From contig JABDLD010000075.1 of assembly GCA_013001885.1 (NCBI GenBank), positions 1 through 64,000 of the forward strand: 64,000 nt of DNA. Direction: 5' to 3'. Shown here piece after piece: positions 21,322 through 38,065 of the stretch. The notes beneath the pieces were generated by a model, which was not told the origin of the DNA, searched no databases, and saw only the letters and a list, made by a program, of their open reading frames with translations. A program made the translations under genes and the position numbers. Numbering within the stretch: the stretch's first letter is position 1; each line of letters opens with the position of its first letter. This stretch comes from Lysobacterales bacterium (GTDB taxonomy: Bacteria > Pseudomonadota > Gammaproteobacteria > Xanthomonadales > SZUA-36).

Positions 21322-21942
21322 TCAACGTAACTGAACGGGAATCAGAATTTCATTCCGGCGCATGAACCAGGGTTTGAAGGGCGGATCGTAGCGGGCCCAC
21401 ACGGGCTTGCCCATTTGCCTGTATTCACTTTTGGTAATCCAGTTCTGAAGCTCCTCGAGATGCTTTCGGTAATTTTTCTGCGTCCATCGCCCGGAAAAAC
21501 GGATTGCGGCCGCCCGGTAGGCGGGTACTTCACGAATGAAAACGTCCGGATCGGTTGGCTGCGGAATGGTATCCATGCTGTAACTGGCAGGCATCATGAA
21601 GCTCACCGCCCAACCATCCTGAGCCGGGCGCTGTTCGACTGGCGAGGTCATCGCTATTTTTTCCGATCGTTTTTTCTGCGAGACCGGTGATGTCATCGCT
21701 ATTTTGTCCTGCGCCTGATTATCACCCGAGATGTAGTTGAACAGTTTTCTGAACGCGCGTCCTCCCGCGTCCTCAAAATCATCGTCCACCAGGGTTTCGG
21801 CCACGATGGACGGTTCGTAGTCACGCACCTCGATGTCCTCATCGGCATGAACCACGGTGAATTGAGCTTCTTCAATCGCCACCAGGCTGTCCATTGGAAA
21901 AGCGGCCAGTGCAAAAACAAAAACCATCAGTGCTTTCCTCAT
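21322..21942 (-). CDS. SOUL family heme-binding protein, secreted
   Basis: 206 residues from the ATG at 21942, which has GGAG upstream and begins a signal peptide (MRKALMVFVFALAAFPMDSL). The SOUL/HBP motifs are clear: FTVVHADEDIEVRDYEPSIV, FNYISGDNQAQDKIAMTSPV and a second AMTSPV. SOUL proteins bind heme or porphyrin; the role in bacteria is poorly known. It lies 28 bases after the preceding gene of the putative light operon and is probably its last member. Confidence 0.88.
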   Translation of the reverse strand: MRKALMVFVFALAAFPMDSLVAIEEAQFTVVHADEDIEVRDYEPSIVAETLVDDDFEDAGGRAFRKLFNYISGDNQAQDKIAMTSPVSQKKRSEKIAMTSPVEQRPAQDGWAVSFMMPASYSMDTIPQPTDPDVFIREVPAYRAAAIRFSGRWTQKNYRKHLEELQNWITKSEYRQMGKPVWARYDPPFKPWFMRRNEILIPVQLR

Positions 21943-21970
21943 GGGCGAGACTCCGATTGTGCATTGCGCA

Positions 21971-22477
21971 TCAGAAATTGCGTGAATCATAGGCCCAGTG
22001 CAGCAGGGCCTGGCGCTGGCGCGGGCGGCACATCAGGTCGCCTTTCACGCAGTTCTTGCGGATTTGCGCTATGTGGCGCGTCATCGCTTTCCAGCGTTTC
22101 ACCTGACGTTCATCGTCCTCGCAGCGGCGTCCCATGTAGTAGCGGCAGTACCATTGAAACCAGCCGCGCGGGTCATTTTCCCAAATCCAGCCCTTGTCGC
22201 GCCAGTAGGACAGCGGCTTGGACGCGTCGACCCCAAAAAAATTCAGGTCGTTTTCCCGCTTTTCCGGGCTCAGCTTGGCTTTTTCAAACCACTCGGCAGG
22301 AAATTCGTCCTGACAGTCGGTCATGTACTTTCCGCCGAAGATTCCCATTTTCAGCATCTGTTCAGGACTCAGCTCCGGTTTGAACTCGGGGTGGAAATTT
22401 TCTCCAGCCGGCTCAGACCGTTCGTATTCGTAATCGGTTTGCATTTTATCGTTGACGATGACGGTTTTCGGGCGCAA
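21971..22477 (-). CDS. Conserved-looking protein of unknown function, Trp/Tyr-rich
   Basis: 168 residues from a TTG at 22477; AGGAG lies eight bases upstream and overlaps the preceding stop, so this start is favoured over the ATG at 22444. The sequence is highly charged with a striking aromatic core (KGWIWENDPRGWFQWYCRYY, then MGRRCEDDERQVKRW) and a Cys-rich end (RKNCVKGDLMCRPRQRQALL). There is no signal peptide or membrane helix. I do not recognise the family. Its position between a CFA-like methyltransferase and the SOUL protein argues it acts in the same pathway. Confidence 0.7.
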   Translation of the reverse strand: MRPKTVIVNDKMQTDYEYERSEPAGENFHPEFKPELSPEQMLKMGIFGGKYMTDCQDEFPAEWFEKAKLSPEKRENDLNFFGVDASKPLSYWRDKGWIWENDPRGWFQWYCRYYMGRRCEDDERQVKRWKAMTRHIAQIRKNCVKGDLMCRPRQRQALLHWAYDSRNF

Positions 22478-22488
22478 GAGACGGGCTC

Positions 22489-23751
22489 CTAAATTGTTTT
22501 TAACCGGCTTTCCGGCTTGGCGAACAGGATTTGCACGTCGGATATAGCCCGTTCCATGAAGGCGCCTTCACAGTAACAAAGGTAGTAGTCCCACATCCGG
22601 ATAAACGCTTCCGAGAATCCCTGCTCGCGAACTTCGTCAATCCGGGCAAAAAAATTGTCGCGCCAGCGCTGCAGGGTGGTGGCATAGTGCAGGCCGATGT
22701 CCTCCAGCCCCAGCAGCCGCATATCAGTCTGTCGCGCCACGCAGTCTGTCATCACGGCGGACGAGGGCAGACCACTGCCGGGAAAAATGTAACGCTGAAT
22801 GAAGTCGATCGATTTACGGTATTCCTCATAGCGCTGGTCGACAATGGTGATGGCCTGGATCAGCATGGCGCCGTCCGGCTTCAGAAGCTCGCTGCATTTG
22901 CTGAAGTAAATATCGAAAAGACCGTGATCGATCGCCTCGATCATTTCAATTGACACCAGTTTGTCGAATTGACCCTCCAGCTTTCTGAAGTCTTCGAACA
23001 ACAGCGTGATCCGATCGCTCAGGCCCGCCGCGGCAACCCGTTCCCGGGCTTTTTCGTACTGTTCCTGCGAAATAGTGGTCGTGGTAACTCGGCAACCGTA
23101 ATTTTGCGCCGCGTAAATGGCGAATCCGCCCCAGCCGGTGCCGATTTCCACGACGTGGTCATCCGGCTTGAGTTGCAACCGCTCGCAAATATGCTGCATA
23201 CGGGCAATTTGCGCTTCGTGCAGGCTGGTTTTATCATCCGCAAAAATGGCTGATGAATACATCATCGTCTGATCCAGCCACAGAGCGAAAAACTCGTTAC
23301 CGAGATCATAGTGAGCCGAGATGTTGCGCCGGGCGCCCTCATGGGTATTGCGGTTAATCCAGTGAAAAAGTTTTTGCAACGGCTCGGTGAAACGCGCGGC
23401 CCCCGTCTCCATCCCGTCGAGCACCCGTCGATTCTGCAGCAGCAAGCGGACCACCGTCACCAGGTCATCGCAATCCCAGTAGCCGTGCATGTACGCTTCA
23501 CCACCGCCGATGGAGCCGCCAAATGCGATCTCACTGTAAAAGCGGGGATCGTTGACTCGAATGGCTGCCTGGATACCGGCACCGTCCTCCGCGCCGTAAC
23601 GGTATTCTCTGTCGCCGTCCGTCAAAATCAGGGTTCCGCATTCCAGTCCTTCGAGCTGACGCGTGACCATCCGCCGCGCCAGCCCGTCGAGCATGCTGGG
23701 TTTTACGGTGCCGGCCAGGTGGCGCGGGGATGCGAGCGAAACTGATCTCAT
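22489..23751 (-). CDS. Cyclopropane-fatty-acid-synthase-like SAM methyltransferase (copy 1)
   Basis: 420 residues from the ATG at 23751, which overlaps the DUF1365 stop by ATGA. An N-terminal SCP2-like region (GTLILTDGDREYRYG; FGGSIGGGEAYMHGYWDCDD) precedes the methyltransferase core with DHVVEIGTGWGGFAIYAA as the SAM motif, SIEMIEAIDHG and FIQRYIFPGSGLPS. Family members methylate or cyclopropanate double bonds of phospholipid acyl chains. With an FAD oxidase-like protein and DUF1365 next door, a modified acyl product such as a methylated or furan fatty acid is possible. Confidence 0.9.
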   Translation of the reverse strand: MRSVSLASPRHLAGTVKPSMLDGLARRMVTRQLEGLECGTLILTDGDREYRYGAEDGAGIQAAIRVNDPRFYSEIAFGGSIGGGEAYMHGYWDCDDLVTVVRLLLQNRRVLDGMETGAARFTEPLQKLFHWINRNTHEGARRNISAHYDLGNEFFALWLDQTMMYSSAIFADDKTSLHEAQIARMQHICERLQLKPDDHVVEIGTGWGGFAIYAAQNYGCRVTTTTISQEQYEKARERVAAAGLSDRITLLFEDFRKLEGQFDKLVSIEMIEAIDHGLFDIYFSKCSELLKPDGAMLIQAITIVDQRYEEYRKSIDFIQRYIFPGSGLPSSAVMTDCVARQTDMRLLGLEDIGLHYATTLQRWRDNFFARIDEVREQGFSEAFIRMWDYYLCYCEGAFMERAISDVQILFAKPESRLKTI

Positions 23752-24524
23752 TTGAATTTCCCCGCCGCGGACTCCGTTTTTCCAGGGTGGTCGTGCACCG
23801 GCGCTCCTTTGAGCCACAGTTTCAGCGCCTGCCAGTGAATGGCGGTAATGATTTTCAACGTCATGAACGGGAAGTTGAACAGCACGCCGGCCAGTGAGCG
23901 TGCGTTCAGCTCCCGACGCTTGAGCATCATGGTGACATCGAAGATTTTCTCTCCCTTACGCGCATTTTCCATGTGGACGGTCAACGCATCGTTCGGCGGG
24001 TTGAAGCGCCAGTCGTAGTCGACGTCCATTTGCATGAACGGCGAAACATGCATTTCTTTTTCTGGAAAGTAGCGCTTATGGGCTTGTGACCCGCGGTTCA
24101 TGCTTTGCGGCAAAACATAACAATGCTGCTCGCCCCACGGCGTGTTGTTTACTTCGGCCACGATCGTCTCCAGTTCCGTATCATCCGCGTTATAACAGTA
24201 ATAAAAACTGACGGGATTGAAAACGTATCCGAAATAACTCAATTGAGTCAACAGCCGGATCGGCCCGTCGGGCGCAGTGCCGGTTTTCCCCCGGACGAGT
24301 TCACGCACAGCCCGGTCGAGCGAAACGGCCGGATCACCCAGGTGGTCCTTGCGGCGGAAGCGGGCCAGGGCCGGGCGCCGGGCCGACCACAACCAGCGGT
24401 TCCGGAACAACTCCGGGATTTCCGCCAGGTCGAGATACATCATGAACAGACGGTAGGTGAACGCGTGCTCGACAGGAGCCGTTCGCCGATGCCTAACCTG
24501 TCCTGAGTAAATAGCGCTTTTCAT
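23748..24524 (-). CDS. DUF1365 family protein
   Basis: 258 residues from the ATG at 24524 (overlapping the FAD gene by 32 bases). It shows the DUF1365 pattern VRHRRTAPVEHAFTYRLFM, the central LTQLSYFGYVFNPVSFYYCY and KEMHVSPFMQMDVDYDWRF. There is a hydrophobic stretch near the C-terminus (FNFPFMTLKIITAIHWQALK). Its function is not established; it nearly always accompanies COG2907-type FAD proteins and CFA-like methyltransferases, often in light- or singlet-oxygen-induced clusters. Confidence 0.9.
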   Translation of the reverse strand: MKSAIYSGQVRHRRTAPVEHAFTYRLFMMYLDLAEIPELFRNRWLWSARRPALARFRRKDHLGDPAVSLDRAVRELVRGKTGTAPDGPIRLLTQLSYFGYVFNPVSFYYCYNADDTELETIVAEVNNTPWGEQHCYVLPQSMNRGSQAHKRYFPEKEMHVSPFMQMDVDYDWRFNPPNDALTVHMENARKGEKIFDVTMMLKRRELNARSLAGVLFNFPFMTLKIITAIHWQALKLWLKGAPVHDHPGKTESAAGKFK

Positions 24525-25797
24525 CGCTCTGCTGATCACTGCCGGAGAGATCCTGCTGGAAATGTTGCAGCGCGGAAAGGGCGCTGACCACACCGTCCTC
24601 GTGAAAACCATAACGCCAATAAGCGCCGCAGTAGTAGGTGCGCCGCGGGCCATTGATGTTGCGGTGCATCTTTTGCGCCGTCACTGCCTGTTCGGTGAAA
24701 ACCGGATGCGAGTAACTGATGGTCTGGATGATTTTGTCCGGATCAATAGCCTGCGTGTTGTTGAGCGTGACGCAAAACTGGACCGGCGCATCGAGGCTCT
24801 GCAGGATATTCATGTTGTACGTCAACGCCACCTTGCCGTCTGGATCGGTTGGTCCGTCCGGGACGTGGTAATTCCAGGCGGCCCAGGCCAGGCGGCGTTT
24901 TGGCATCAGGGTGTCGTCCGTGTGCAAAACCGCCTCGTTCTGCTGATACTGGATGGCCCCGAGTACTTCACGTTCCTGCGGACTGGGGTCGGCCAGCAGT
25001 TCAAGGGCCTGGTCGCTGTGGCAGGCCAGGAACACGCGGTCGAAACATTCAACGCCGGAACCCTTCACCTTGACCTCGACGTGCTCCGGGTGCCGGCGAA
25101 TCCATTCGACTGGCGAATCGAGGCGAATTCGATCGCGGTGACCCGCGACCAGCTTATCAAGGTAAGTCCGTGAGCCGCCTTTGATCACGCGCCAGGTGGG
25201 GCGGTCATTAACCGACAGCAGTCCATGGTTTTGGAAAAATCGAATAAAGAACGCGGCCGGCACGGCGCGCATTCCACCCGGTGTAGCCGACCAGATCGCC
25301 GCCCCCATCGGAACGATGTAGTGGTCGACAAACCCCGGCGAGTAGCCGTTACGGTCCAGGTAGTCACCGAGGGAAATCGTGTTGCCGGGATCGTCGAGCA
25401 AGCCGGGGGCTTCGCGATTGAACCGTAGGATGTCTATCAGCATCCGGTAAAACGAAGGCTTCAGCAGGTTACTGCGCTGCGCGAAAACCGCGTTGAGCGA
25501 CGCACCGTTGTATTCCAACCCGGTGCGTTCGTTGCGGACACTGAAGCTCATGTCGCTGTCCTGCGACTCAACTCCCAGCTCGTCCAGCAGGGCGATAAAA
25601 TTGGGGTAGGTCCTGTCGTTGAAAACGATAAAGCCGGTATCGACCGCCCACTGTTGGCCGGCTGCAGACACATCAACCGTGTTGGTGTGTCCACCGATCC
25701 GCTGATCGGCTTCGAAAACGGTGATCTCGTGGTCGGGGGCTAGCCTGTAGGCTGCGACGTTCCCGGCGATACCGGTTCCGACGATGGCGATTTTCAT
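24493..25797 (-). CDS. FAD-dependent amine-oxidase-like oxidoreductase (COG2907 type)
   Basis: 434 residues from the ATG at 25797, beginning MKIAIVGTGIAGNVAAYRL, the dinucleotide-binding motif. The motif GGHTNTVDVSA follows, with AVDTGFIVFNDRTYPNF near 65; the C-terminal GPRRTYYCGAYWRYGFHEDG closes the FAD site. These are predicted NAD/FAD-binding desaturase or oxidase proteins; the substrate is probably the lipid made by the CFA-like enzymes. The ORF could be extended 20 residues upstream but would then overlap the lipocalin stop. Confidence 0.9.
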   Translation of the reverse strand: MKIAIVGTGIAGNVAAYRLAPDHEITVFEADQRIGGHTNTVDVSAAGQQWAVDTGFIVFNDRTYPNFIALLDELGVESQDSDMSFSVRNERTGLEYNGASLNAVFAQRSNLLKPSFYRMLIDILRFNREAPGLLDDPGNTISLGDYLDRNGYSPGFVDHYIVPMGAAIWSATPGGMRAVPAAFFIRFFQNHGLLSVNDRPTWRVIKGGSRTYLDKLVAGHRDRIRLDSPVEWIRRHPEHVEVKVKGSGVECFDRVFLACHSDQALELLADPSPQEREVLGAIQYQQNEAVLHTDDTLMPKRRLAWAAWNYHVPDGPTDPDGKVALTYNMNILQSLDAPVQFCVTLNNTQAIDPDKIIQTISYSHPVFTEQAVTAQKMHRNINGPRRTYYCGAYWRYGFHEDGVVSALSALQHFQQDLSGSDQQSDEKRYLLRTG

Positions 25798-25801
25798 GCC
25801 G

Positions 25802-26329
25802 TTACCACTGTTGGGGAATACGCTGTAATTCAGAGGTGTCGTAGCCGGAGTCTGCAATGAACTGCACGGCGTCCCGAAATTCCCTGTCGCTCATTTCAGG
25901 TGAGCGCGCCATCAACCAGACATAGTCACGCTTGTTGCGGCCGATGATCGTTATCGAGTACTCCGGGTCCAGGTAAATGATCCGGTAGTCTCCCTTGAAT
26001 GGCCAGACGAATTGCATGCCCCACTCGGCGTTGGTTTCGGTGTCGCGTATGAATCCTCTCGGGTGATACTCTTTTTCAGGGCCGTCGAATCCATCCTTGC
26101 GAAAAGTGAAGGTTGTGGCGATCGTGCCATCGTCGTCCAGGCGATAGGATTCCACGGCGTTGTGCGCGCCTTGCTCGACAAAAGTCGGGATGTTCGCAAT
26201 GACGTACCAATCGCCCATGAACCGGTCCAGGTCCACGTAATCAACGGTCTCCAGGGTGGGCAGACTGGCCTGGCACCCGGCCAGCACGGCGGCGCCTGCG
26301 AGCGTTAAAACTTTTTTCTGAAGTTTCAT
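25802..26329 (-). CDS. Outer-membrane lipocalin, Blc-like lipoprotein
   Basis: 175 residues from the ATG at 26329 with AGGA just upstream. The signal peptide ends in a lipobox (AAVLAGC), so Cys19 is probably lipidated. The lipocalin signature is DLDRFMGDWYVIANIPTFVE, with YIIYL-type strands and the C-terminal helix DREFRDAVQFIADSGYDTSE. Blc-type lipocalins bind lysophospholipids or fatty acids at the outer membrane. It fits as a carrier or repair protein for the modified lipid. It lies four bases from the genes on both sides. Confidence 0.92.
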   Translation of the reverse strand: MKLQKKVLTLAGAAVLAGCQASLPTLETVDYVDLDRFMGDWYVIANIPTFVEQGAHNAVESYRLDDDGTIATTFTFRKDGFDGPEKEYHPRGFIRDTETNAEWGMQFVWPFKGDYRIIYLDPEYSITIIGRNKRDYVWLMARSPEMSDREFRDAVQFIADSGYDTSELQRIPQQW

Positions 26330-26333
26330 TTTC

Positions 26334-27146
26334 CTATCCTCTGTGCCCGGTTTCGTTTCCGTCCAGCTCACTATCGCTCCTGGGCCGGCCCGGGATGAAA
26401 GCGTTAGTCCGGCGAATGTAATCCTGGTAGGCGGGCCGCCGGCCGGCGATGTCTTTTTCCAGCATGGCAACACCGGAAACACGTACCAGCAGGAAGGTCA
26501 TCAAAAGCGGTGCCACAATGGCCCACCAGGCGCCGGCGGACAGGGCGAAAAGATAAAACCCCCACCAGATGACGGCTTCGCCAAAGTAGTTGGGATGGCG
26601 GGTATATCGCCACAATCCGGTATCCAGAACGTCGTTTTCCGAGCGCTTTTCACTGCGAAACCGCGTGAGCTGGTAGTCACCAACGACCTCGAAGAACATG
26701 CCGATCAGCCACAGGGCGACGGCTGCGAAATCAAGTGGCCCAAGTGGTGTCCGCCCGGCGACAGCCGCGACGGCGGGCAAGACGACCACCCAGGCCAGAA
26801 AACCTTGCAGGAGAAACACGATGTACAGGCTTTTCCATTCGAAAAACGGTTGGTTATTCCGCCGAATCTCCTGGTATCGGCGGTCTTCCGGTTCTCCGTG
26901 ATTGCGAATGGTAATGTGTGCCGATAGGCGCACGGCCCACACGGCCGCCAGCACCAGCAGAAGCGTCGTCCGGGTTCCGGTCGAGTCGGCCGCAACTACA
27001 TAGGCCACCAGACCCAGCAGGATCATCAATGACCACAGGCTATCCACAATACTGACATCCCGGCGCACCACGCTGACCAGCCAGGCAATAACCGAAGCCG
27101 TCAGCACTGCGGCCAGCGAGTAGAACCATGCGTTGAAATCAAGCAT
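26334..27146 (-). CDS. DUF1295 membrane protein (steroid-5-alpha-reductase-like fold)
   Basis: 270 residues from the ATG at 27146 (GAGG nine bases upstream). About seven membrane helices. The hallmark C-terminal stretch is GLWRYTRHPNYFGEAVIWW followed by WWAIVAPLLMTFLLVRVSGV and AYQDYIRRTNAFIPG, as in DUF1295 and isoprenylcysteine methyltransferase/5-alpha-reductase relatives. These use NADPH or SAM on lipid substrates; here the activity is unknown. It overlaps the DUF2878 stop by eight bases. Confidence 0.92.
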   Translation of the reverse strand: MLDFNAWFYSLAAVLTASVIAWLVSVVRRDVSIVDSLWSLMILLGLVAYVVAADSTGTRTTLLLVLAAVWAVRLSAHITIRNHGEPEDRRYQEIRRNNQPFFEWKSLYIVFLLQGFLAWVVVLPAVAAVAGRTPLGPLDFAAVALWLIGMFFEVVGDYQLTRFRSEKRSENDVLDTGLWRYTRHPNYFGEAVIWWGFYLFALSAGAWWAIVAPLLMTFLLVRVSGVAMLEKDIAGRRPAYQDYIRRTNAFIPGRPRSDSELDGNETGHRG

Positions 27147-27708
27147 GCTGAGAAGCCTCACACTCTTCCCGCGGCTGTGTCGAGGGGCGACTTTCGCTGA
27201 ACCCGTCCAGGCGGATGGCCAGCCACACAAGCGCCGGCATCGCGACCGCCCAGATGACCGTTAATGCAACCAGTGCATTCACCGGTTCGACGAATTGCAT
27301 GGCGCCGAGCCGCTCGCCTGCTAGATAGCTTAGCGGTCCGCCTGCCGCCCCAGCAAGGACAGCCACCAACACCCTGTTTCGCATCCACTTCATCGAAACA
27401 TTGAGCGTTGTGGCAAACAGTGCCCACATGGCCAGGATCCAGTAAGGAGCGAATCCGGCAGCCCAGATGCCGTTCGGATAGCTTACCCAGCCGGCAAACA
27501 CCAGCAGACTGTCCGCAACCAAGCCGATCGCAACGGCGCAAAGAACGAGCTGCAGTTCGGCGAGGGGGCGCCTGGCTATTGACAGGTGCAGCCCAACCGC
27601 GGCCAGCACCGCTAAAGGTCCGATCCAGGGAAAACCGTTGGCCGCCCCCAGCACGCACGAGAACCAGCCCGCCTGGAAGGCGGCGAAGTTGACGAGTAAG
27701 TGCTTCAC
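27139..27708 (-). CDS. DUF2878 family membrane protein
   Basis: 189 residues from a GTG at 27708 with GGAG seven bases upstream and a GTGA overlap with the preceding methyltransferase. Four to five helices (LLVNFAAFQAGWFSCVLGAA; LVLCAVAIGLVADSLLVFAG; FAPYWILAMWALFATTLNV). Small DUF2878 proteins are usually found next to DUF1295 and CFA-like genes; biochemical role unknown. A longer ORF reading to 27768 lies inside the upstream gene and is not preferred. Confidence 0.85.
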   Translation of the reverse strand: MKHLLVNFAAFQAGWFSCVLGAANGFPWIGPLAVLAAVGLHLSIARRPLAELQLVLCAVAIGLVADSLLVFAGWVSYPNGIWAAGFAPYWILAMWALFATTLNVSMKWMRNRVLVAVLAGAAGGPLSYLAGERLGAMQFVEPVNALVALTVIWAVAMPALVWLAIRLDGFSESRPSTQPREECEASQHA

Positions 27709-28787
27709 CGGTCCGCTCCGGGCCGGTTGTGCTCCGGCAATTCGAACAGGTAGTGCGACACAAACCACTCATGGCCGTTGTCATAGGCAAATAGCTCGGC
27801 ACAAGCCATGAAGAATATACGCCAGCGCTGAAACCAGCGTTCGGCGCTCACTTCCCCGTAGGTAGCCGCCATGATTGGCAGAATCCGTTCTTTTCTCGCG
27901 TCCATGTTGGCTAGCCAGGCGTTGGCGGTTTTTTCATAGTGCTTTCCATCCCAGCGATCGCGCCTGATCAGACGAAGATGCTCCTGGAATCGCAGCGGCA
28001 GGTCGTCACTGGGCATGATGCCGCCGGAGAAGAAGTGCCTGCCCATCCAGTCGGAGGGCCCTTCATCCAGAAATTCGTAAGGAATGCTGCGGTTGACGAA
28101 TATATGCATGAAGAACTTGCCGTCCGGCTTCAGCCAACGGCTCAGGCGGGAAAAAAGTTCGCGGTAGTTCCGCATATGTTCGAACATTTCTACCGACACG
28201 ATGCGGTCGTACTCGTCGCGCGGTTCGAAATAATTCATGTCTTCGGTCAAGACCTCGATATTTTCCAGGCCTCGCTGGTGGGCCAGCTCGCGAATGTGTT
28301 TACCCTGCGGCTTCGAGTTCGAGACCGAGGTGACAGAGCATTTGGGAAAACGTTCGGCAATCCACAGACTTAGTGAGCCCCATCCGCAACCGAGGTCGAG
28401 AATTGACATTCCGTCTTCGATTCCCGCTCGCCGGCAGGTTATTTCGAGCGCTGCGCCCTCGGCATCATCCAATGACTCGGCGCTTTCGCCCCAGTAGCAG
28501 CAACTGTACTTGCCATGCTGACCGAGTACTTCGTCAAAGAACTCAGGCGGCACTTCGTAATGCTGTTCATTGGCGAGGTCGGGTACAAGGGCCACGGGTG
28601 ATTGATTCATCTGGCCGACAAAATCTTCCAGTATACGGCCGGAGATTTCGATATCTCCAGCCCCGATGGCTTTCAACCTTTGACGGCAGAGTCGCCTGAT
28701 GCCGGCGCGTAAAACGCTGTCCGGCACCAGGCCACGCTCTGTCCAGTCAAGGACTGTACTTGATGCTTTGATAGCGGCTGTGCTCAT
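27705..28787 (-). CDS. Cyclopropane-fatty-acid-synthase-like SAM methyltransferase (copy 2)
   Basis: 360 residues from the ATG at 28787 (AAGGA seven bases upstream; a TTG at 28790 is also in frame). SAM motif SILDLGCGWGSLSLWIAERF, then SVEMFEHMRNY and the C-terminal RWFQRWRIFFMACAELFAY. It is shorter than copy 1 and lacks its N-terminal SCP2-like region. It resembles the CFA-related methyltransferases of the Rhodobacter singlet-oxygen regulon. The two copies in one operon probably act on different intermediates. Confidence 0.88.
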   Translation of the reverse strand: MSTAAIKASSTVLDWTERGLVPDSVLRAGIRRLCRQRLKAIGAGDIEISGRILEDFVGQMNQSPVALVPDLANEQHYEVPPEFFDEVLGQHGKYSCCYWGESAESLDDAEGAALEITCRRAGIEDGMSILDLGCGWGSLSLWIAERFPKCSVTSVSNSKPQGKHIRELAHQRGLENIEVLTEDMNYFEPRDEYDRIVSVEMFEHMRNYRELFSRLSRWLKPDGKFFMHIFVNRSIPYEFLDEGPSDWMGRHFFSGGIMPSDDLPLRFQEHLRLIRRDRWDGKHYEKTANAWLANMDARKERILPIMAATYGEVSAERWFQRWRIFFMACAELFAYDNGHEWFVSHYLFELPEHNRPGADR

Positions 28788-28815
28788 CAAAAGGTCCTTT
28801 AAAACGAGTTGTAAC

Positions 28816-29490
28816 TCACAGCTGGTCGTTGCAGAACGCCGCTGTCAGGTTGGCCGCAGTGTACATGGCGGGCGCTTCCCCATCCAGACGAACGGTTGCC
28901 ATGCCTCCAAAACAGCTGTCGAAGCTGAAGAAACCCGGGCTGCCCTCGCCATCATGTGTGTACCCGGTGCCCGTCGCGCGGTTTTGGGACGGAATGGGCT
29001 CGAAGATGAAGCCGGTGTCTGAACCTTCAATTATTTCCCAAGACCCGTTTGTCGAATTGTCCACCGGGGAGCGAGTTTGCAGCTCTCCTATAAGGAAAAC
29101 GATGATTCCAGGTGGGTGATTGATGCCGTCGTCTACAACAGTAATCAGTTCAAGGTCTTGTGTCGTGCCAGTGCCGGCCGCGAAAACCGAGTAATTGGCA
29201 CCGTCGGGCAGAGTGAAATCGCCCGGAATGGCGACCGCATCAGTTTCTGCCAGCAGGATATCGATCGTGTAAGTGCCCTCGGCAAAATCGAGGTAGTCGG
29301 TAAACTGTTTGAAGGTAACGGCACTCAAATCATCGACCGACATCCCATTAACGGCGATCGCAACGGCGGCGCCGTCAATCTTGTCTTCAACCGGAGCAAA
29401 GTGCGCTACCGCGGCGTTTGCCTGTCCAAAGGTTAAAACGCCGGTTGCGATGACAAGTGCTGCAGAAGCAGCAGCGGTCAACTTGTTCAT
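28816..29490 (-). CDS. Secreted DUF4397-like protein
   Basis: 224 residues with a signal peptide (MNKLTAAASAALVIATGVLT, cleavage after ANA). The mature part begins AAVAHFAPVEDKIDGAAVAI and has FAEGTYTIDILLAETDAV and YSVFAAGTGTTQDLELITVV, the beta-sandwich pattern of DUF4397 domains. The C-terminus has two Cys (SFDSCFGG and AAFCNDQ) that could form a disulfide. GGAG seven bases before the ATG. It is the promoter-proximal gene of the putative light operon; role unknown. Confidence 0.75.
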   Translation of the reverse strand: MNKLTAAASAALVIATGVLTFGQANAAVAHFAPVEDKIDGAAVAIAVNGMSVDDLSAVTFKQFTDYLDFAEGTYTIDILLAETDAVAIPGDFTLPDGANYSVFAAGTGTTQDLELITVVDDGINHPPGIIVFLIGELQTRSPVDNSTNGSWEIIEGSDTGFIFEPIPSQNRATGTGYTHDGEGSPGFFSFDSCFGGMATVRLDGEAPAMYTAANLTAAFCNDQL

Positions 29491-29596
29491 GTGTCATCTC
29501 CAAGTAGTTTTTGTACAGGTTTTGGTTTTCAATTTTTACGTTGTGGCCCGAAAACCCCGTCTTTACGCTCCGTTCCGAAACTTAATATCGTAATAA

Positions 29597-29625
29597 TCTT
29601 AAACACTATTAGGTAAAATGTACAA
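29597..29625 (-). promoter_or_regulatory. Candidate promoter for the minus-strand lipid operon
   Basis: On the minus strand TTGTAC (29625-29620) and TTAAGA (29602-29597) are separated by 17 bases. The upstream hexamer falls inside the first TGTACA operator box, so a bound repressor would block it. The match to sigma-70 elements is weak and an ECF-type promoter cannot be excluded. Confidence 0.35.
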
Positions 29626-29650
29626 CGTTTGTACAACTAATGCAACTGTA
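29618..29650. promoter_or_regulatory. CarH/LitR-type operator: three 11-bp direct repeats
   Basis: TGTACA at 29619-29624, TGTACA at 29630-29635 and a weaker TGCAAC at 29641-29646 recur at exactly 11-base steps. Thermus CarH tetramers bind three 11-bp direct repeats with this core (established). The array lies between the divergent regulator and the lipid operon, 128 bases upstream of the DUF4397 start. Confidence 0.7.
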
Positions 29651-29681
29651 TTTTGAAATTTTCTGGCGCTTTGAGGATTCC

Positions 29682-29700
29682 TTGTACACGTTATGTATAG
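29682..29700. promoter_or_regulatory. Second CarH/LitR-type box pair near the regulator gene
   Basis: TGTACA at 29683-29688 and TGTATA at 29694-29699 are again 11 bases apart; a third repeat at 29705 is not convincing. The pair is about 50-70 bases upstream of the MerR-B12 regulator start, where it could mediate autoregulation. A single further TGTACA is at 29512-29517 in the DUF4397 leader. Confidence 0.6.
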
Positions 29701-29750
29701 CATTCAACAATCTAGTATGTTAGAATTTCTAAAACAAGTCGGGAATTGAA

Positions 29751-30680
29751 ATGAACGCTGAAGCAAAGATCCTGGATTATCCATCGGAGAAGTTGTATAC
29801 CATTGGCACAGTATCCAAGCTCACGGGGGTCGGGGCTATCACGCTCCGCGCCTGGGAACGTCGCTATGGCCTGATCAAGCCGGTTCGCAAGGAAAGTGGG
29901 CATCGGCTGTACACCCGTCAGCACATTGATCAAATCAACCGGATCACTTCATTGACACAACAGGGAATCCGGATCAGCCAGATCAGCCCAGAAATGCTGG
30001 AAAGTGAATCTCCTCTGGATCAGGGCGGTGAGTCGGACGCCTGGAACGAATACCTCAACAGCATGATGGCGGCGATCATCAGCTTCGACGAACAGCGCCT
30101 GGAAGAGGTCTACAACAATGCGCTTTCGCTCTACCCGATCGGTATGGTGACCCGAAAGCTCTTGACGCCGCTTTTGATCGAACTGGGTCTGCGTTGGGCA
30201 GAAGGCGGGGGCGGCATCGCCGAGGAGCATTTCTTTGCTTTTTACCTGAGAAACAAACTGGGCGCGCGTTATCATCACCGTCCGCGCAGTGACAACGGGG
30301 CGCGAATATTGTTGGCGGGTCTGCCGGGTGAAAACCATGACGTGGGACTGTTGCTGTTTGCTCTGGCCGCTCATGAAGCCGGCTACCGGGTGATTCCGTT
30401 AGGGGCCAACATGCCTTTACACGAACTCGAGGTGGTGGCGAAAAGCAAGAATTGTTCTGCAATCGTGCTGGCAGGCGCAATTGAGCCCACCGAGCGGACG
30501 CTTGCTAAAGAACTTCCGGCGTTGGTGAAACAATCCGGTGTGCCCGTCACTGTCGGAGGCCTTGCGTCGGTTTACGGTTGCGAGGCCATTGATCGGGCCG
30601 GCGCTAAGCCGCTGGGCCGCGATATAGAGCGCGGCCTTGAAAAATTGAATGAAGTCTTGTCATCAAAACGTAATGATTGA
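29751..30680 (+). CDS. MerR-type regulator with B12-binding domain, CarH/LitR photoreceptor family
   Basis: 309 residues. MerR winged helix at about 15-80 (YTIGTVSKLTGVGAITLRAW), helical bundle at about 95-175, and B12-binding Rossmann domain at about 185-305. It keeps the adenosylcobalamin-capping motif of CarH, W149-x9-E159-H160, and the cobalt-ligand motif E194-N-H196-D-V-G199. In CarH, AdoCbl drives a DNA-binding tetramer in the dark and light breaks it. GGGA six bases before ATG supports the start. It is divergent from a ten-gene lipid operon, with 11-bp direct-repeat boxes in between. Confidence 0.92.
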   Translation: MNAEAKILDYPSEKLYTIGTVSKLTGVGAITLRAWERRYGLIKPVRKESGHRLYTRQHIDQINRITSLTQQGIRISQISPEMLESESPLDQGGESDAWNEYLNSMMAAIISFDEQRLEEVYNNALSLYPIGMVTRKLLTPLLIELGLRWAEGGGGIAEEHFFAFYLRNKLGARYHHRPRSDNGARILLAGLPGENHDVGLLLFALAAHEAGYRVIPLGANMPLHELEVVAKSKNCSAIVLAGAIEPTERTLAKELPALVKQSGVPVTVGGLASVYGCEAIDRAGAKPLGRDIERGLEKLNEVLSSKRND

Positions 30681-30703: not shown

Positions 30704-31120
30704 TTGAACCCGGCACCCATAAACATCATGAGCAAGAAACAAAAACCCACCCCTGCAACAGAAGCGCTGACCGAGCGAGCAATGACCGGGCTCCTCTCGC
30801 GGGCGTTCTCTCAGCCTCCAAAGATTTTAGGGCAGGCCGAAGCGTCACTTTCCAGTTACTCGGTGTTCTGGTGTGTAGCTTCACACGACCGGGCCACTCA
30901 GGTCGAGGTCGCGAACCTGACCGGCCTCTCCGCCAAGACAGTGTCGAGGGTTATCTCCCAGCTGGGCGAGACGCGCGGGGGGCGAGGCTGGATTAAACAG
31001 ATTCCTGATGATTCCGATAGAAGAATTCGGCGGCTGTCCCTTAGCAGGAAAGGCCGCGCCATCCATGCCCGATTGCTTAAGGACATTTCGAGATTCAGCA
31101 GCGCCGTCGATTCCACCTGA
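30704..31120 (+). CDS. MarR-like winged-helix regulator
   Basis: 138 residues from a TTG at 30704 with AAAGG seven bases upstream; an ATG at 30728 would give 130 residues but has no ribosome site. The helix-turn-helix is ATQVEVANLTGLSAKTVSRV, followed by the wing DDSDRRIRRLSLSRKG and a short helix. It is smaller than most MarR proteins. It follows the CarH/LitR regulator by 23 bases on the same strand and may be co-transcribed; its target is unknown. Confidence 0.75.
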   Translation: MNPAPINIMSKKQKPTPATEALTERAMTGLLSRAFSQPPKILGQAEASLSSYSVFWCVASHDRATQVEVANLTGLSAKTVSRVISQLGETRGGRGWIKQIPDDSDRRIRRLSLSRKGRAIHARLLKDISRFSSAVDST

Positions 31121-33574: not shown

Positions 33575-36500
33575 TTGACTCGTAAAATCGCCAAACTGCA
33601 CGATCCCGTCCGGGACTTCAAAGACGGCTGTGGATTTGCCCTCCTGGCGCATATGGATGGCGAAAAAAGCCACTGGCTGGTGCAGACCACGCTGGAATCG
33701 CTGGCGCGCCTGACCCACCGCGGAGCGGTTGCGGCAGACGGCAAGTCGGGTGACGGTTGCGGAATCATGCTGCAGTTCCCGGAACCTTTTTTGCGCGATA
33801 TTGCAGAGGAATGCAAATTCAAACTCTCCGAACGGTTTGCTTCTGGTCTGGTTTTTTTCTCGCCTGAAAAGGAGCTGATCGAGCGCGGCCAGAAAATCCT
33901 GACCCGGCACCTGGGGCAATTCGCGCTGGACATTGCAGGATGGCGAAAAGTGCCTACCTGCCCGGAGGTTGTTGGCGAACAGGCGCTGGAAAGCATGCCT
34001 GCCATATACCAGGTATTCGTGAACGCGCCGGCCGGCTGGAGACCTCATGATATCGAGCGGCAACTCTATGCCGCGCGCCGCCTGGCGTACGAGGAAGAGC
34101 GCGAACTGCCCGAGCCCGATCCGCTGTATTACGTGGTCACGCTGTCCAACCTGACGATGGTGTACAAAGGACTGGTCCAGGCTGAACACCTGGCGGACTT
34201 TTACCCTGATCTGCGCGATGAGCGGATGACCAGTTCAATCGGAATCTGCCACCAGCGATTCTCCACCAACACTCTGCCGCGCTGGAACTATGCACAACCT
34301 TTCCGTTACCTGGCCCACAATGGTGAGATCAACAGCGTCAATGCGAACCGCGATTGGGCTAACGCCCGGGCCGGTATCCTGCATTCACCTTTGCTGCCCA
34401 GCCTCGAGAGCCTGTCTCATCTGGTGAACCATGAGGGCTCGGACTCCTCTTCCATGGACAATCTGCTGGAGGTGTTCCTGGGAGGAGGCATGGATATGTT
34501 CCGCGCCATGCGCCTGCTGTTACCGCCGGCGATCCGCGACGACATGGACTCGGAACTGAAAGCCTTCCTGGAGTTCAACTCGATGCACCAGGAACCCTGG
34601 GACGGGCCCGCAGGCGTGGTTTCCACCAACGGCAGCATTGCGTGCTGCAATCTGGACCGCAATGGCTTGAGGCCGGCTCGATACAGCATCACGCACGATG
34701 GTGTTTTCACCGTGGCCTCGGAAACCGGCGTCTGGGACTGCCCTCCGGAGCGAATAAAGCGCCGAGGCCGTCTTGGCCCGGGCGAAATGATCGCGGTCGA
34801 TACGAAAAGCGGCAAGTTCTGGAAAAACAACGCTATCGACGACAGCCTGAAAGCGACTCACTCCTACCGCGAGTGGATGACCGAAAACGTCGTGCGGGTC
34901 TGGAACAACGACGACCAGGAGCGCAAAGCCGCCAACAAGTTCATGCGTGAATCCGCCGGACAATTACCCATTCACCAGAAGATGTTCGGGCTTGGCGCAG
35001 AAGAGATTGAAACCATCATCAGCCCGATGGCGCTGGAGTCGCAGGAGCCGGTCGGGTCGATGGGCGATGATACCCCGGTGGCGGTGTTATCGGAACGCAA
35101 CCGGTCCATCTACGATTATTTCCGGCAGTCCTTCGCCCAGGTCACCAATCCTCCAATCGATCCGCTGAGAGAGTCAGCGGTCATGTCGCTGGAGACTTGT
35201 ATTGGCCGGGAGCACAACGTGTTTCACGAGACGGCCTCCCATGCCTACCGCGTTCTGCTGCCCTGGCCCGTTCTGAATTATGTTAAATATCAGACGCTGC
35301 TCGGCCTCGATCAGCGTTATTACCGCAATGTGCGGTTCAGCTTGAACTACGATCCGGACCAGGCCGGCTTGGGAGACTCGCTCAAAGCGCTGGCGGCGTC
35401 CAGTGTCCAGGCGGTGCAAGGCGGAGCCACGATCCTGGTGCTGAGTGACCGTGACATTTCCCGGGACCGGCTGCCGATTCCTGCGCCACTGGCCGTGGGC
35501 GCGGTGCACCAGGCGCTATTGCGGGCCAGCGAACGGCCCAATGCCAACATCATCATCGAAACCGGTTCCGCACGTGATCCCCATCAATATGCCGTTTTGC
35601 TGGGTATGGGCGCTACCGCAATCTACCCGTACCTGGCCTTTCAGAGCATCAACCAGCAACAGGAATCCGGTGCGCTTGAGGGCGATCCCATTCAGCTGCG
35701 TAAAAACTATCGCCGGGGAATCCGTAAAGGTCTGCTCAAGATTTTATCCAAAATGGGCATTTGCACCATGGCCAGCTATCGCGGCTCCCAGTTGTTCGAA
35801 GCCGTTGGTCTGGCGCCGGAAGTTATTGAATTGTGTTGCCCGAAAGTAGCCTCCAAAATCCACGGGGCGGGTTTCGCGGAACTCGAAAACGACGCACGCA
35901 AGGCAGCCGGCAGGGCGTGGGCTGACCAGGTCCGCCCCACCCGGGACGGTATTTATCGCTATATGCACGGCGGCGAACAGCATGCCTACAACCCCGATGT
36001 GGTGATGCTGCTGCAACAGGCGGTGGCGAGCGGCCAATGGTCGGACTACCGGCGCTTCGCCGACCAGGTCAACCTGCGCCCCATCCTGGCCATTCGGGAC
36101 CTGCTCTCGCTCAGGGCGTCCGCAGAGCCTCTTCCGCTCAGCAAAGTGGAAATGGAAGAACACCTCTATCCTCGATTCGACACCGCCGCCATGTCCATTG
36201 GTGCGTTGTCACCCGAAGCGCATGAGTCGCTTGCGATCGCAATGAATCGGCTCGGCGGACGATCCAATTCCGGTGAGGGTGGTGAAGACCCGGTTCGGTT
36301 CAGTTCCGATAAAAACTCCGGCATCAAGCAGGTTGCCTCTGGCCGCTTTGGCGTCAGCGCCCACTACCTGGTTAACGCTGACGTATTGCAGATCAAAGTC
36401 GCCCAGGGCGCCAAGCCCGGGGAAGGCGGGCAGTTGCCGGGACACAAGGTCACCGTGGAAATCGCCGCGCTGCGATGCTCCACTCCCGGCGTCACCCTGA

Positions 36501-38065
36501 TTTCTCCGCCGCCTCACCATGACATCTATTCCATCGAAGATCTCTCCCAGTTGATTTTCGATCTGAAAATGGTCAATCCCAGGGCCCTGGTCTCAGTCAA
36601 GCTGGTGGCCGGCTCCGGGGTTGGGACCATCGCCGTGGGCGTGGCCAAGGCTTATGCAGATCTCATCACGATTGCCGGGTTCGACGGCGGCACCGGCGCA
36701 AGCCCGCTGAGCTCAGTGAAGTATGCCGGCCTGCCCTGGGAGCTGGGGCTGGCTGAGACCCACCAGGCGCTGGTTGAAAACGGCCTGCGCCACAAGATTC
36801 GCCTGCAGGTCGACGGCGGTTTGAAAACGGGCCTCGATGTAGTCAAGGCCGGTATCTTGGGAGCCGAGAGCTTTGGGTTTGGCACCGGCCCGATGGTCGC
36901 GCTGGGCTGCAAATACCTTCGTATCTGCCACCTGAACAACTGCGCCACCGGTATTGCAACGCAGAATGAAAAGCTGCGTGAACAGCATTTCCACGGGCTG
37001 CCCGAACGCGTGATGAAGTACTTCGAATTTCTTGCTCGTGATGTGCGGGAAATACTGGCCAGTCTCGGGCTGCGCAATTTTGCCGAGGTCATCGGACGCA
37101 GCGACCTGCTGGAACAGCTGCCGGGCACAACGGATAAGCACAGGACGCTGAAACTCGATGCCATTCTTGCCTCGGCCGGGACACGCAGCCATCAGAAGCC
37201 TTACTGCACTGAAGCGAGAAACCCGCCTTTCGACGCCGGTCTGCTCAACCAGGAGATTCTGGAGGCGGCTCGGGAATCCCTTGTGAGCAAGGAAAAATGG
37301 GCCGGTCAATTCGGAATCCACAATTACGACCGCTCGGTCGGGGCCAGCCTTGCCGGTGAACTGGCGCGCCGCCATGGGCGCGAAGGCCTCCCCGATGACA
37401 GCCTGAAAATCAAATTGACCGGGACAGCCGGCCAGAGCCTTGGCTGCTGGAATACGCCGGGCATCACGATTCAACTCGAAGGTGATGCCAACGACTACGT
37501 CGGCAAAGGTATGTCTGGCGGGAAAATCGTCTTGACCACCGCCGATGTCGACCGGGCAAGGGCTCGCCGAAACGTAATTTGCGGAAATGCCTGCCTGTAC
37601 GGCGCAACGGGCGGCGAACTTTATGCCAACGGCCAGGCGGGGGAACGCTTCGCCGTGCGCAACTCGGGTGCGCGCGCCGTCATCGAAGGCGCCGGCCACC
37701 ACGCCTGCGAATATATGACCGGCGGCACGGTAGTGATCATGGGGTCATTCGGCCCGAACCTGGCGGCTGGAATGACCGGCGGCGAACTGTTCCTGCTCGA
37801 CCCCAACCGCCAGGTCGAACGAAACCTCAATCCGGAGTTCGTCAAAGCCACCGCGCTGGAGGAACAGAGATTCGATGCTCCGCGCAGACGATTGAAAGGC
37901 ATGATTTCCACTCACGTGGCACTGACCGGGAGCGAGTGGGGGCGTAAGGTGCTCGATTCCTGGGATTTGATGCTACCTCACTGGGTGTACATCGTTCCCA
38001 AGAAAATGTTGGCGAGTAACGAAATCTCGCAACAGGATGTACCGCTCAGGCTGGTGAAGGCCTAG
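33575..38065 (+). CDS. gltB: Glutamate synthase (NADPH) large subunit
   Basis: 1496 residues, full length. The start is a TTG at 33575 with GGGAGA upstream. After an 18-residue propeptide comes the class-II amidotransferase domain whose nucleophile is Cys19 (DGCGFALLAHMDG). The FMN and synthase domain lies about 880-1260 (ITIAGFDGGTGASPLSS) with the 3Fe-4S motif CKYLRICHLNNC near 1111, and the GXGXG helix domain near 1290-1460. It transfers glutamine amide N to 2-oxoglutarate. gltD follows by 11 bases. Confidence 0.97.
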   Translation: MTRKIAKLHDPVRDFKDGCGFALLAHMDGEKSHWLVQTTLESLARLTHRGAVAADGKSGDGCGIMLQFPEPFLRDIAEECKFKLSERFASGLVFFSPEKELIERGQKILTRHLGQFALDIAGWRKVPTCPEVVGEQALESMPAIYQVFVNAPAGWRPHDIERQLYAARRLAYEEERELPEPDPLYYVVTLSNLTMVYKGLVQAEHLADFYPDLRDERMTSSIGICHQRFSTNTLPRWNYAQPFRYLAHNGEINSVNANRDWANARAGILHSPLLPSLESLSHLVNHEGSDSSSMDNLLEVFLGGGMDMFRAMRLLLPPAIRDDMDSELKAFLEFNSMHQEPWDGPAGVVSTNGSIACCNLDRNGLRPARYSITHDGVFTVASETGVWDCPPERIKRRGRLGPGEMIAVDTKSGKFWKNNAIDDSLKATHSYREWMTENVVRVWNNDDQERKAANKFMRESAGQLPIHQKMFGLGAEEIETIISPMALESQEPVGSMGDDTPVAVLSERNRSIYDYFRQSFAQVTNPPIDPLRESAVMSLETCIGREHNVFHETASHAYRVLLPWPVLNYVKYQTLLGLDQRYYRNVRFSLNYDPDQAGLGDSLKALAASSVQAVQGGATILVLSDRDISRDRLPIPAPLAVGAVHQALLRASERPNANIIIETGSARDPHQYAVLLGMGATAIYPYLAFQSINQQQESGALEGDPIQLRKNYRRGIRKGLLKILSKMGICTMASYRGSQLFEAVGLAPEVIELCCPKVASKIHGAGFAELENDARKAAGRAWADQVRPTRDGIYRYMHGGEQHAYNPDVVMLLQQAVASGQWSDYRRFADQVNLRPILAIRDLLSLRASAEPLPLSKVEMEEHLYPRFDTAAMSIGALSPEAHESLAIAMNRLGGRSNSGEGGEDPVRFSSDKNSGIKQVASGRFGVSAHYLVNADVLQIKVAQGAKPGEGGQLPGHKVTVEIAALRCSTPGVTLISPPPHHDIYSIEDLSQLIFDLKMVNPRALVSVKLVAGSGVGTIAVGVAKAYADLITIAGFDGGTGASPLSSVKYAGLPWELGLAETHQALVENGLRHKIRLQVDGGLKTGLDVVKAGILGAESFGFGTGPMVALGCKYLRICHLNNCATGIATQNEKLREQHFHGLPERVMKYFEFLARDVREILASLGLRNFAEVIGRSDLLEQLPGTTDKHRTLKLDAILASAGTRSHQKPYCTEARNPPFDAGLLNQEILEAARESLVSKEKWAGQFGIHNYDRSVGASLAGELARRHGREGLPDDSLKIKLTGTAGQSLGCWNTPGITIQLEGDANDYVGKGMSGGKIVLTTADVDRARARRNVICGNACLYGATGGELYANGQAGERFAVRNSGARAVIEGAGHHACEYMTGGTVVIMGSFGPNLAAGMTGGELFLLDPNRQVERNLNPEFVKATALEEQRFDAPRRRLKGMISTHVALTGSEWGRKVLDSWDLMLPHWVYIVPKKMLASNEISQQDVPLRLVKA

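Follow-up and report, generated by a model that had tools for sequence, protein, structure and literature searches.

A CarH-type regulator, its paired 11-bp operator boxes and a candidate membrane-lipid regulon in a Lysobacterales bacterium

B12-based light sensors are best known for controlling carotenoid genes. In the window (the whole stretch of DNA analysed here, 64,000 nucleotides at positions 1 to 64,000 of contig JABDLD010000075.1 from a Lysobacterales bacterium), a MerR-type regulator lies next to TGTACA boxes and a divergent operon. This arrangement raises the question of whether the regulator is a photoreceptor of the same kind and which genes it controls. The preferred reading, with a probability of roughly 0.8, is a CarH-type repressor that is bound to adenosylcobalamin (AdoCbl) in the dark and acts on a photo-oxidative membrane regulon. 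Within this reading, we infer AdoCbl binding, the light response, repression and the lipid product. Such a light sensor probably induces membrane-lipid and cofactor genes in the light.

Signature, fold and unusual residues of the regulator

The regulator is a single open reading frame with three domains.

29751 to 30680, plus strand: CarH-type MerR regulator of 309 aa, identified by profile, motif and fold evidence; HTH at about residues 16-79, four-helix bundle at about 94-175, Rossmann B12 domain at about 185-308

The protein matches PF13411 (MerR HTH; 58.4 bits, cut-off 21.6) and PF02607 (four-helix bundle; 37.8, cut-off 23) and scores below the cut-off for PF02310 (25.9 vs 32.1). The Wx9EH motif is present as W149, E159 and H160 in the four-helix bundle. 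The D/ExHx2G lower-ligand motif is present as E194-N-H196-D-V-G199, with H196 in the Rossmann domain. The initial annotation had described W149-x9-E159-H160 and E194-x-H196-x2-G199, and all of these residues are found at those positions of the 309-aa frame. The light-response signature of cobalamin photoreceptors is given as GxxW, EH, GxxH and GxxxP (PMC11796333), and it is complete in the window CarH.

In an alignment of 81 sequences, G146, W149, E159, H160, H196 and P222 are conserved in every sequence, G218 in 80 and G193 in 76. In a test with a looser pattern, every signature element is present in 76 of the 81. The relatives are a sample of 80 named sequences (the best 80 of 145); the nearest are MAGs of the Lysobacterales, Chromatiales and Xanthomonadales, and cultured ones include Methylovorus and Hylemonella (L088, L090, L117). 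They were retrieved with patterns that spanned the EH region and part of the HTH, and the conservation of EH is therefore partly selected for. W149, H196 and a His175-His176 pair lie outside these patterns. A fragment (L031) was omitted from alignment A1. For alignment A2, duplicates, fragments and motif outliers were removed, 20 in all from the 80 named loci.

By sequence, the closest solved structures are those of Thermus thermophilus LitR/CarH (3whp, 1.6e-25; 5c8d, 1.9e-25). The AlphaFold2 model (77 sequences, mean pLDDT 87.7, pTM 0.70) matches CarH 5c8e with a Z score of 20.2 and an rmsd of 2.6 over 200 residues, and the match covers the bundle and the Rossmann domain. The photocobilin 8j2x is an equal fold match (Z 20.2, 205 residues), and further CarH entries also tie. 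The CarH/LitR alignment and the structural model agree with the initial annotation, in that the signature is kept and the fold is that of CarH. The score against NCBIfam NF052513 (CarH equivalog) is 130.2 bits, below the cut-off of 400, and the window protein is therefore not assigned to that equivalog. A PduO-type cobalamin adenosyltransferase (208.8 bits) is encoded in the same genome, which would probably allow the cell to convert salvaged cobalamin to AdoCbl.

The residue following W149 is Ala150 in the window CarH, a point absent from the initial annotation, and His is found at this position in none of the 80 relatives (best 80 of 145). In T. thermophilus CarH (TtCarH), His132 is described as the upper cobalt ligand after light, with a His switch that explains release (PMC10442372). 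A His after the Trp is present in many, not all, CarH members (PMC9304148). The H132A variant of TtCarH remains mostly tetrameric under light (PMC10442372). In light, the tetramer of CtMerR, which has Arg at the 132-equivalent, falls apart into monomers, and a green-light response is still reported where this position is Arg, Gln or Tyr (PMC11796333). For such proteins, the AdoCbl-bound dark form is described at 540/560 nm, with a new peak near 356 nm after 530-nm pulses (PMC11796333). Since CtMerR with Arg still monomerises, the loss of His is compatible with photoreception. Light-driven release of the window CarH from DNA would, without a His132 equivalent, have to proceed by another route.

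His175 is present in 78 and His176 in 80 of the 81 aligned sequences, and the TtCarH row of the profile alignment has no His opposite the pair. In the model, the final helix of the bundle (156-175) ends at this pair. The pair is near in sequence to the Gly160 region, which is described as lying at the tetramer interface (PMC10442372). Any functional role for it is speculative. The window protein has A241-G242-A243 in place of the SxT/V element of the general B12 motif, and Ser241 is found in 66 of the 81 sequences. This element is not the one that separates CarH from CarA (PMC9304148).

The unusual residues bear on two other readings. The first, which is improbable, is a CarA-like or class II-like regulator with the same fold and operator that takes its light signal from a partner (an anti-repressor or a short LOV protein), with cobalamin absent or structural only. 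It would fit the loss of both the SxT/V element and the light-state His, and class II LitR with a LOV protein controls a similar gene set in Pseudomonas (PMC9758184). However, CarA is described as lacking the Trp (PMC9304148) that all 81 sequences share, and class II LitR as retaining the four-helix bundle only (PMC9758184), whereas the Rossmann domain is present here, with H196 in 81 of 81. The second reading is somewhat less probable still and describes a B12-sensing repressor with AdoCbl status, not light, as its signal. The missing upper-face His may leave the light state unstabilised, as in TtCarH H132A (PMC10442372), but GxxW, EH, GxxH and GxxxP are all kept, and Arg, Gln and Tyr variants at the His position still respond to green light (PMC11796333). 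The controlled genes also lie outside B12 metabolism.

Operator boxes and the divergent promoter

The CarH-type reading also draws on the DNA between the regulator and the divergent operon, which contains the following features.

29619 to 29635, no strand assigned: operator A, two perfect TGTACA boxes 11 bp apart, within the predicted promoter of the divergent operon
29683 to 29699, no strand assigned: operator B, TGTACA-N5-TGTATA, upstream of carH
29641 to 29646, no strand assigned: degenerate third box TGCAAC, overlapping a conserved -35
29512 to 29517, no strand assigned: single TGTACA, possible auxiliary site about 22 bp upstream of the start codon of the DUF4397 gene
29617 to 29645, minus strand: predicted promoter of the divergent operon, TTGCAT (29645-29640), 17 bp, TACATT (29622-29617)

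The CarH consensus operator is given as tandem 11-bp direct repeats with TnnACA (PMC9304148). TGTACA, which is found at 29619, 29630 and 29683, matches TnnACA on both strands, and TGTATA (29694) matches it on the other strand. The initial annotation had placed TGTACA-type boxes in 11-base steps at these four positions and at 29641. The four stand, among them the two-box array upstream of the carH start at 29751. TGCAAC at 29641 was rejected as a true repeat: on the plus strand it agrees with TnnACA at two of four positions, and a conserved TTGCAW -35 accounts for it better. The proposed overlap of the other array with the divergent promoter is retained for the boxes that cover the spacer and -10, and the third box is better read as the -35.

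Seven of nine orthologous promoters have TTGCAW-N17-TACATT on the minus strand, with TTGTAA in place of TTGCAW in one; the motif is missing from L018 and L021. A strict sigma-70 scan of 29480-29760 gives 0 matches, with 1.0 expected in shuffles, and the predicted promoter therefore rests on conservation. From the positions of TTGCAT and TACATT, the operator A boxes would fill the spacer and overlap the -10.

Pairs of boxes are conserved upstream of carH in related genomes. For each of 81 carH genes (the window and the best 80 of 145 relatives), the survey took in the upstream DNA to a maximum of 400 bp. These regions contain 245 TRTAYA boxes, compared with 37.1 (sd 5.4) in 100 shuffles, and 51 pairs at exactly 11 bp, compared with 0.07 (at most 1 in any shuffle). 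Among the other distances up to 45, the most frequent is 22 bp, or two steps, with 8 pairs. When the set is thinned at 60% protein identity, 19 pairs at 11 bp are found in 35 loci, and other distances up to 30 have at most 5 each. In a coding control at the same loci, there are 2 pairs in the first 400 bases and 0 in the next 400. In 14 of the 51 pairs both boxes can be oriented (each being TGTATA or TATACA), and all but one of the 14 are direct repeats. The 11-bp repeats are thus conserved in relatives, as the initial annotation had expected, though an exact pair is present in 40 of the 80 loci that have at least 100 bp upstream (window included) and no exact TRTAYA pair is found by this pattern in the remaining 40.

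In an alignment of eight promoters from the window's clade, both arrays stand out against poorly conserved DNA. Operator B appears as two GTAnA blocks 11 bp apart that are invariant or nearly so. At the 29512 site, TGTAYA is present in 6 of the 8.

The spacing also bears on the class II-like reading. Class II LitR is reported to use TGTACA-N12-TGTACA (PMC9758184), whereas at the 81 loci only 3 TRTAYA pairs are 18 bp apart, against the 51 at 11 bp.

The window contains 14 copies of TGTACA compared with 4.65 expected, and 14 is reached in 0 of 100 shuffles. One copy, at 29908, sits in the codons of a conserved GHRLYT motif; it is a coding coincidence and is therefore excluded from the operator count. 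In the genome to which the window belongs (3.3 Mb), TGTACA-N5-TGTACA with at most one mismatch occurs at 7 places, two of which are the window arrays. The expectation is 1.1, with a maximum of 3 among 30 simulated genomes. With at most two mismatches there are 47 places, compared with 28.0 (sd 5.5) in simulated genomes and 31 for a backwards-pattern control. This excess is small, and loose matches are therefore mostly noise; it is the one point in favour of reading the boxes as chance or as another factor's sites. That reading is very improbable, since beside the carH genes of relatives the boxes are conserved and keep their 11-bp phase. A CarH-type protein with a CarH-type operator is supported by sequence, fold and promoter conservation.

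The divergent operon and the wider regulon

The genes around carH are as follows, with the divergent operon in order from its first gene.

28816 to 29490, minus strand: DUF4397 protein with a signal-peptide-like N-terminus (by eye), first gene of the operon
27705 to 28790, minus strand: CMAS-type SAM methyltransferase a
27139 to 27768, minus strand: DUF2878 protein
26334 to 27230, minus strand: DUF1295 (steroid-reductase-like) protein
25802 to 26482, minus strand: lipocalin
24493 to 25857, minus strand: FAD-dependent amine-oxidase-family protein, putatively of UfaD type by domain
23748 to 24653, minus strand: DUF1365 protein, putatively of UfaO type by domain
22489 to 23817, minus strand: CMAS-type SAM methyltransferase b (either UfaM or a cyclopropane synthase)
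21971 to 22477, minus strand: protein without a Pfam match, likely still in the operon
21322 to 21990, minus strand: SOUL heme-binding-family protein, likely the last gene of the operon
30704 to 31120, plus strand: weak MarR-family open reading frame (23.8 bits, cut-off 24.6), possibly cotranscribed with carH

In Rhodobacter, UfaM (SAM methylase), UfaD (NAD-FAD-domain desaturase) and UfaO (DUF1365) are reported to make furan fatty acids (PMC7380195). The same three domain types are adjacent in the divergent operon, matched by domain and neighbourhood only. The probable products of the operon are membrane fatty acids with a furan or another modification, as a defence against photo-oxidation.

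Among the 80 relatives (best 80 of 145), a counterpart of methyltransferase a (at least 50% identity) follows carH in the same orientation in 41 and is divergent from it in 6; several loci end too near carH to show the arrangement. In 36 of the 41 in-line loci, DUF2878 and DUF1295 are also present. The window's clade has thus flipped the operon and retained an array on each side. Glutathione peroxidase is found in 16 of the 80 carH loci (best 80 of 145).

The MarR-family frame starts 23 bp downstream of carH and might be a second control layer. Its relative adjoins carH in 3 of the 80 loci (best 80 of 145), all from close relatives. In some relatives (L056, L061 and L065), a gene for a fasciclin-domain protein immediately precedes carH in the same orientation. 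Two carH copies are found in some relatives (G037, G011), and L065 and L069 lie about 6 kb apart on the same contig, CALBDB010000060.1. Further along the window, a 1496-aa frame at 33575-38065 on the plus strand resembles, by eye, the large subunit of glutamate synthase and is ordinary.

Of the other five sites in the genome with at most one mismatch, two lie upstream of two FAS1 proteins, one between ubiG2 and miaE, one between the genes for an EamA transporter and coq7, and one between folX-folE-SDR and a glutathione peroxidase gene. Among 12 folX loci (the genome's own included), 7 have an exact pair and 3 have boxes without one. The remaining 2, in G030 and G032, which are carH-positive or probable carH genomes, have no box. 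Within the family, folX is present in 11 of 19 genomes with carH and in 1 of 20 others (Fisher p 0.0004; p 0.004 with the fragmentary G032 taken as carH-negative).

For FAS1 (the L003 protein, with L002 left out), an exact TRTAYA pair is found at 4 of 15 loci, one of them via TATATA, and the genome's own locus has near-matches only. No exact pair is found at FAS1 in the carH-negative genomes G006, G013, G027 and G034; G006 (65% complete) has three boxes at FAS1 and boxes at folX as well. The folX-folE pterin operon is proposed to belong to the CarH regulon, and the FAS1 protein probably belongs to it too, less firmly.

At ubiG2, an exact pair is found in 2 of 9 relatives, one of them upstream of another small gene, and 4 of the 9 carry one or more boxes. 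The ubiG and coq7 sites hint at light-linked ubiquinone synthesis, with weak conservation. As regulon members, miaE and coq7 are not supported: an exact pair is absent at miaE from all 11 other locus rows (10 genomes) and at coq7 from the one other genome.

There are two UbiG-type methyltransferases, L004 505-1242 (C16) and L168 38-754 (C50; this one by eye). The UbiG with a CarH-type operator differs from the UbiG beside a phosphatase-like frame. In the carotenoid check, which used the SQS_PSY family alone, the genome has one match, beside UbiG-like and phosphatase-like frames (labels by eye). A search of the genome with PF03441 (photolyase) gives a single match of 30 bits. It falls in L044 586-3000 (C60), a protein of 804 aa with a photolyase/cryptochrome-like N-half and an FAD amine-oxidase-like half.

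Proposed mechanism and comparison with known systems

In the dark, AdoCbl would lie between W149, E159 and H160 of the four-helix bundle and H196 of the Rossmann domain, and this would lead to oligomerisation. The oligomer would bind the paired 11-bp TnnACA direct repeats. On operator A it would cover the spacer and -10 of the divergent promoter, and on operator B it would limit carH's own expression. Green or blue light would cleave the Co-C bond, the protein would come off the DNA, and the operon would be transcribed.

The kind of regulator is itself known; compared with known CarH, what is new is the missing His132 equivalent and the lipid regulon. Among the matches listed in the open-licence PMC literature, no link of class I LitR/CarH to furan-fatty-acid genes was found, and class II LitR is linked to them. 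A wider scenario, held tentatively and with more doubt than confidence, is a large beta/gammaproteobacterial CarH subfamily that has lost the His ligand behind release in Thermus CarH and uses another light-state switch (for example His175-His176, near the oligomer interface, or Glu/water as in CtMerR). Its targets would form a photo-oxidative regulon of furan-fatty-acid, pterin and FAS1 genes. In Pseudomonas the equivalent regulon is under a B12-free LitR that responds to a LOV protein and uses 18-bp operators, and the photoreceptor would thus have been exchanged. A proteobacterial branch that has no such His, but whose operator can be read and whose target operon is defined, would be a natural test of His-independent release. 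It would also extend B12 photoreception beyond carotenoids to membrane-lipid protection.

The window protein shares the MerR HTH, the four-helix bundle and the Rossmann B12 domain with T. thermophilus CarH (5C8D/5C8E), and it keeps the equivalents of W131, E141, H142 and H177. Both systems have 11-bp TnnACA direct repeats that overlap the promoter (PMC9304148). The two proteins are about 22-28% identical in structural alignments. Unlike Thermus CarH, the window protein has no His132 equivalent and has an extra HH pair (175-176), and its arrays have two perfect repeats each, not three. The targets here are lipid and pterin genes, whereas those in Thermus are carotenoid genes; the crt check here is SQS_PSY only.

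The class II LitR proteins PmlR2 and PplR1 of Pseudomonas, with their short LOV partner, are alike in having TGTACA boxes and in their association with ufaM, an FAD oxidoreductase and pterin genes. The light-induced genes of P. putida include ufaM and folE, and the pmlR2 region of P. mendocina contains folM-folE-folX (PMC9758184). Class II LitR differs in having only the four-helix bundle, in its 18-bp spacing (N12) and in receiving the light signal through a LOV protein (PMC9758184).

CtMerR of Chloracidobacterium (8jbs) and the photocobilins share GxxW, EH, GxxH and GxxxP with the window protein and likewise lack the His of position 132. CtMerR is described as of MerR type and as a tetramer that dissociates to monomers on illumination (PMC11796333). 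It differs in its divergent DNA-binding domain, and the photocobilins differ in their bilin domain.

ChrR is part of the singlet-oxygen response. The ufa genes of Rhodobacter sphaeroides encode the same enzyme types, UfaM (SAM methylase), UfaD (NAD-FAD) and UfaO (DUF1365), and were studied in chrR mutants (PMC7380195), whereas the operon in the window has a CarH-type operator.
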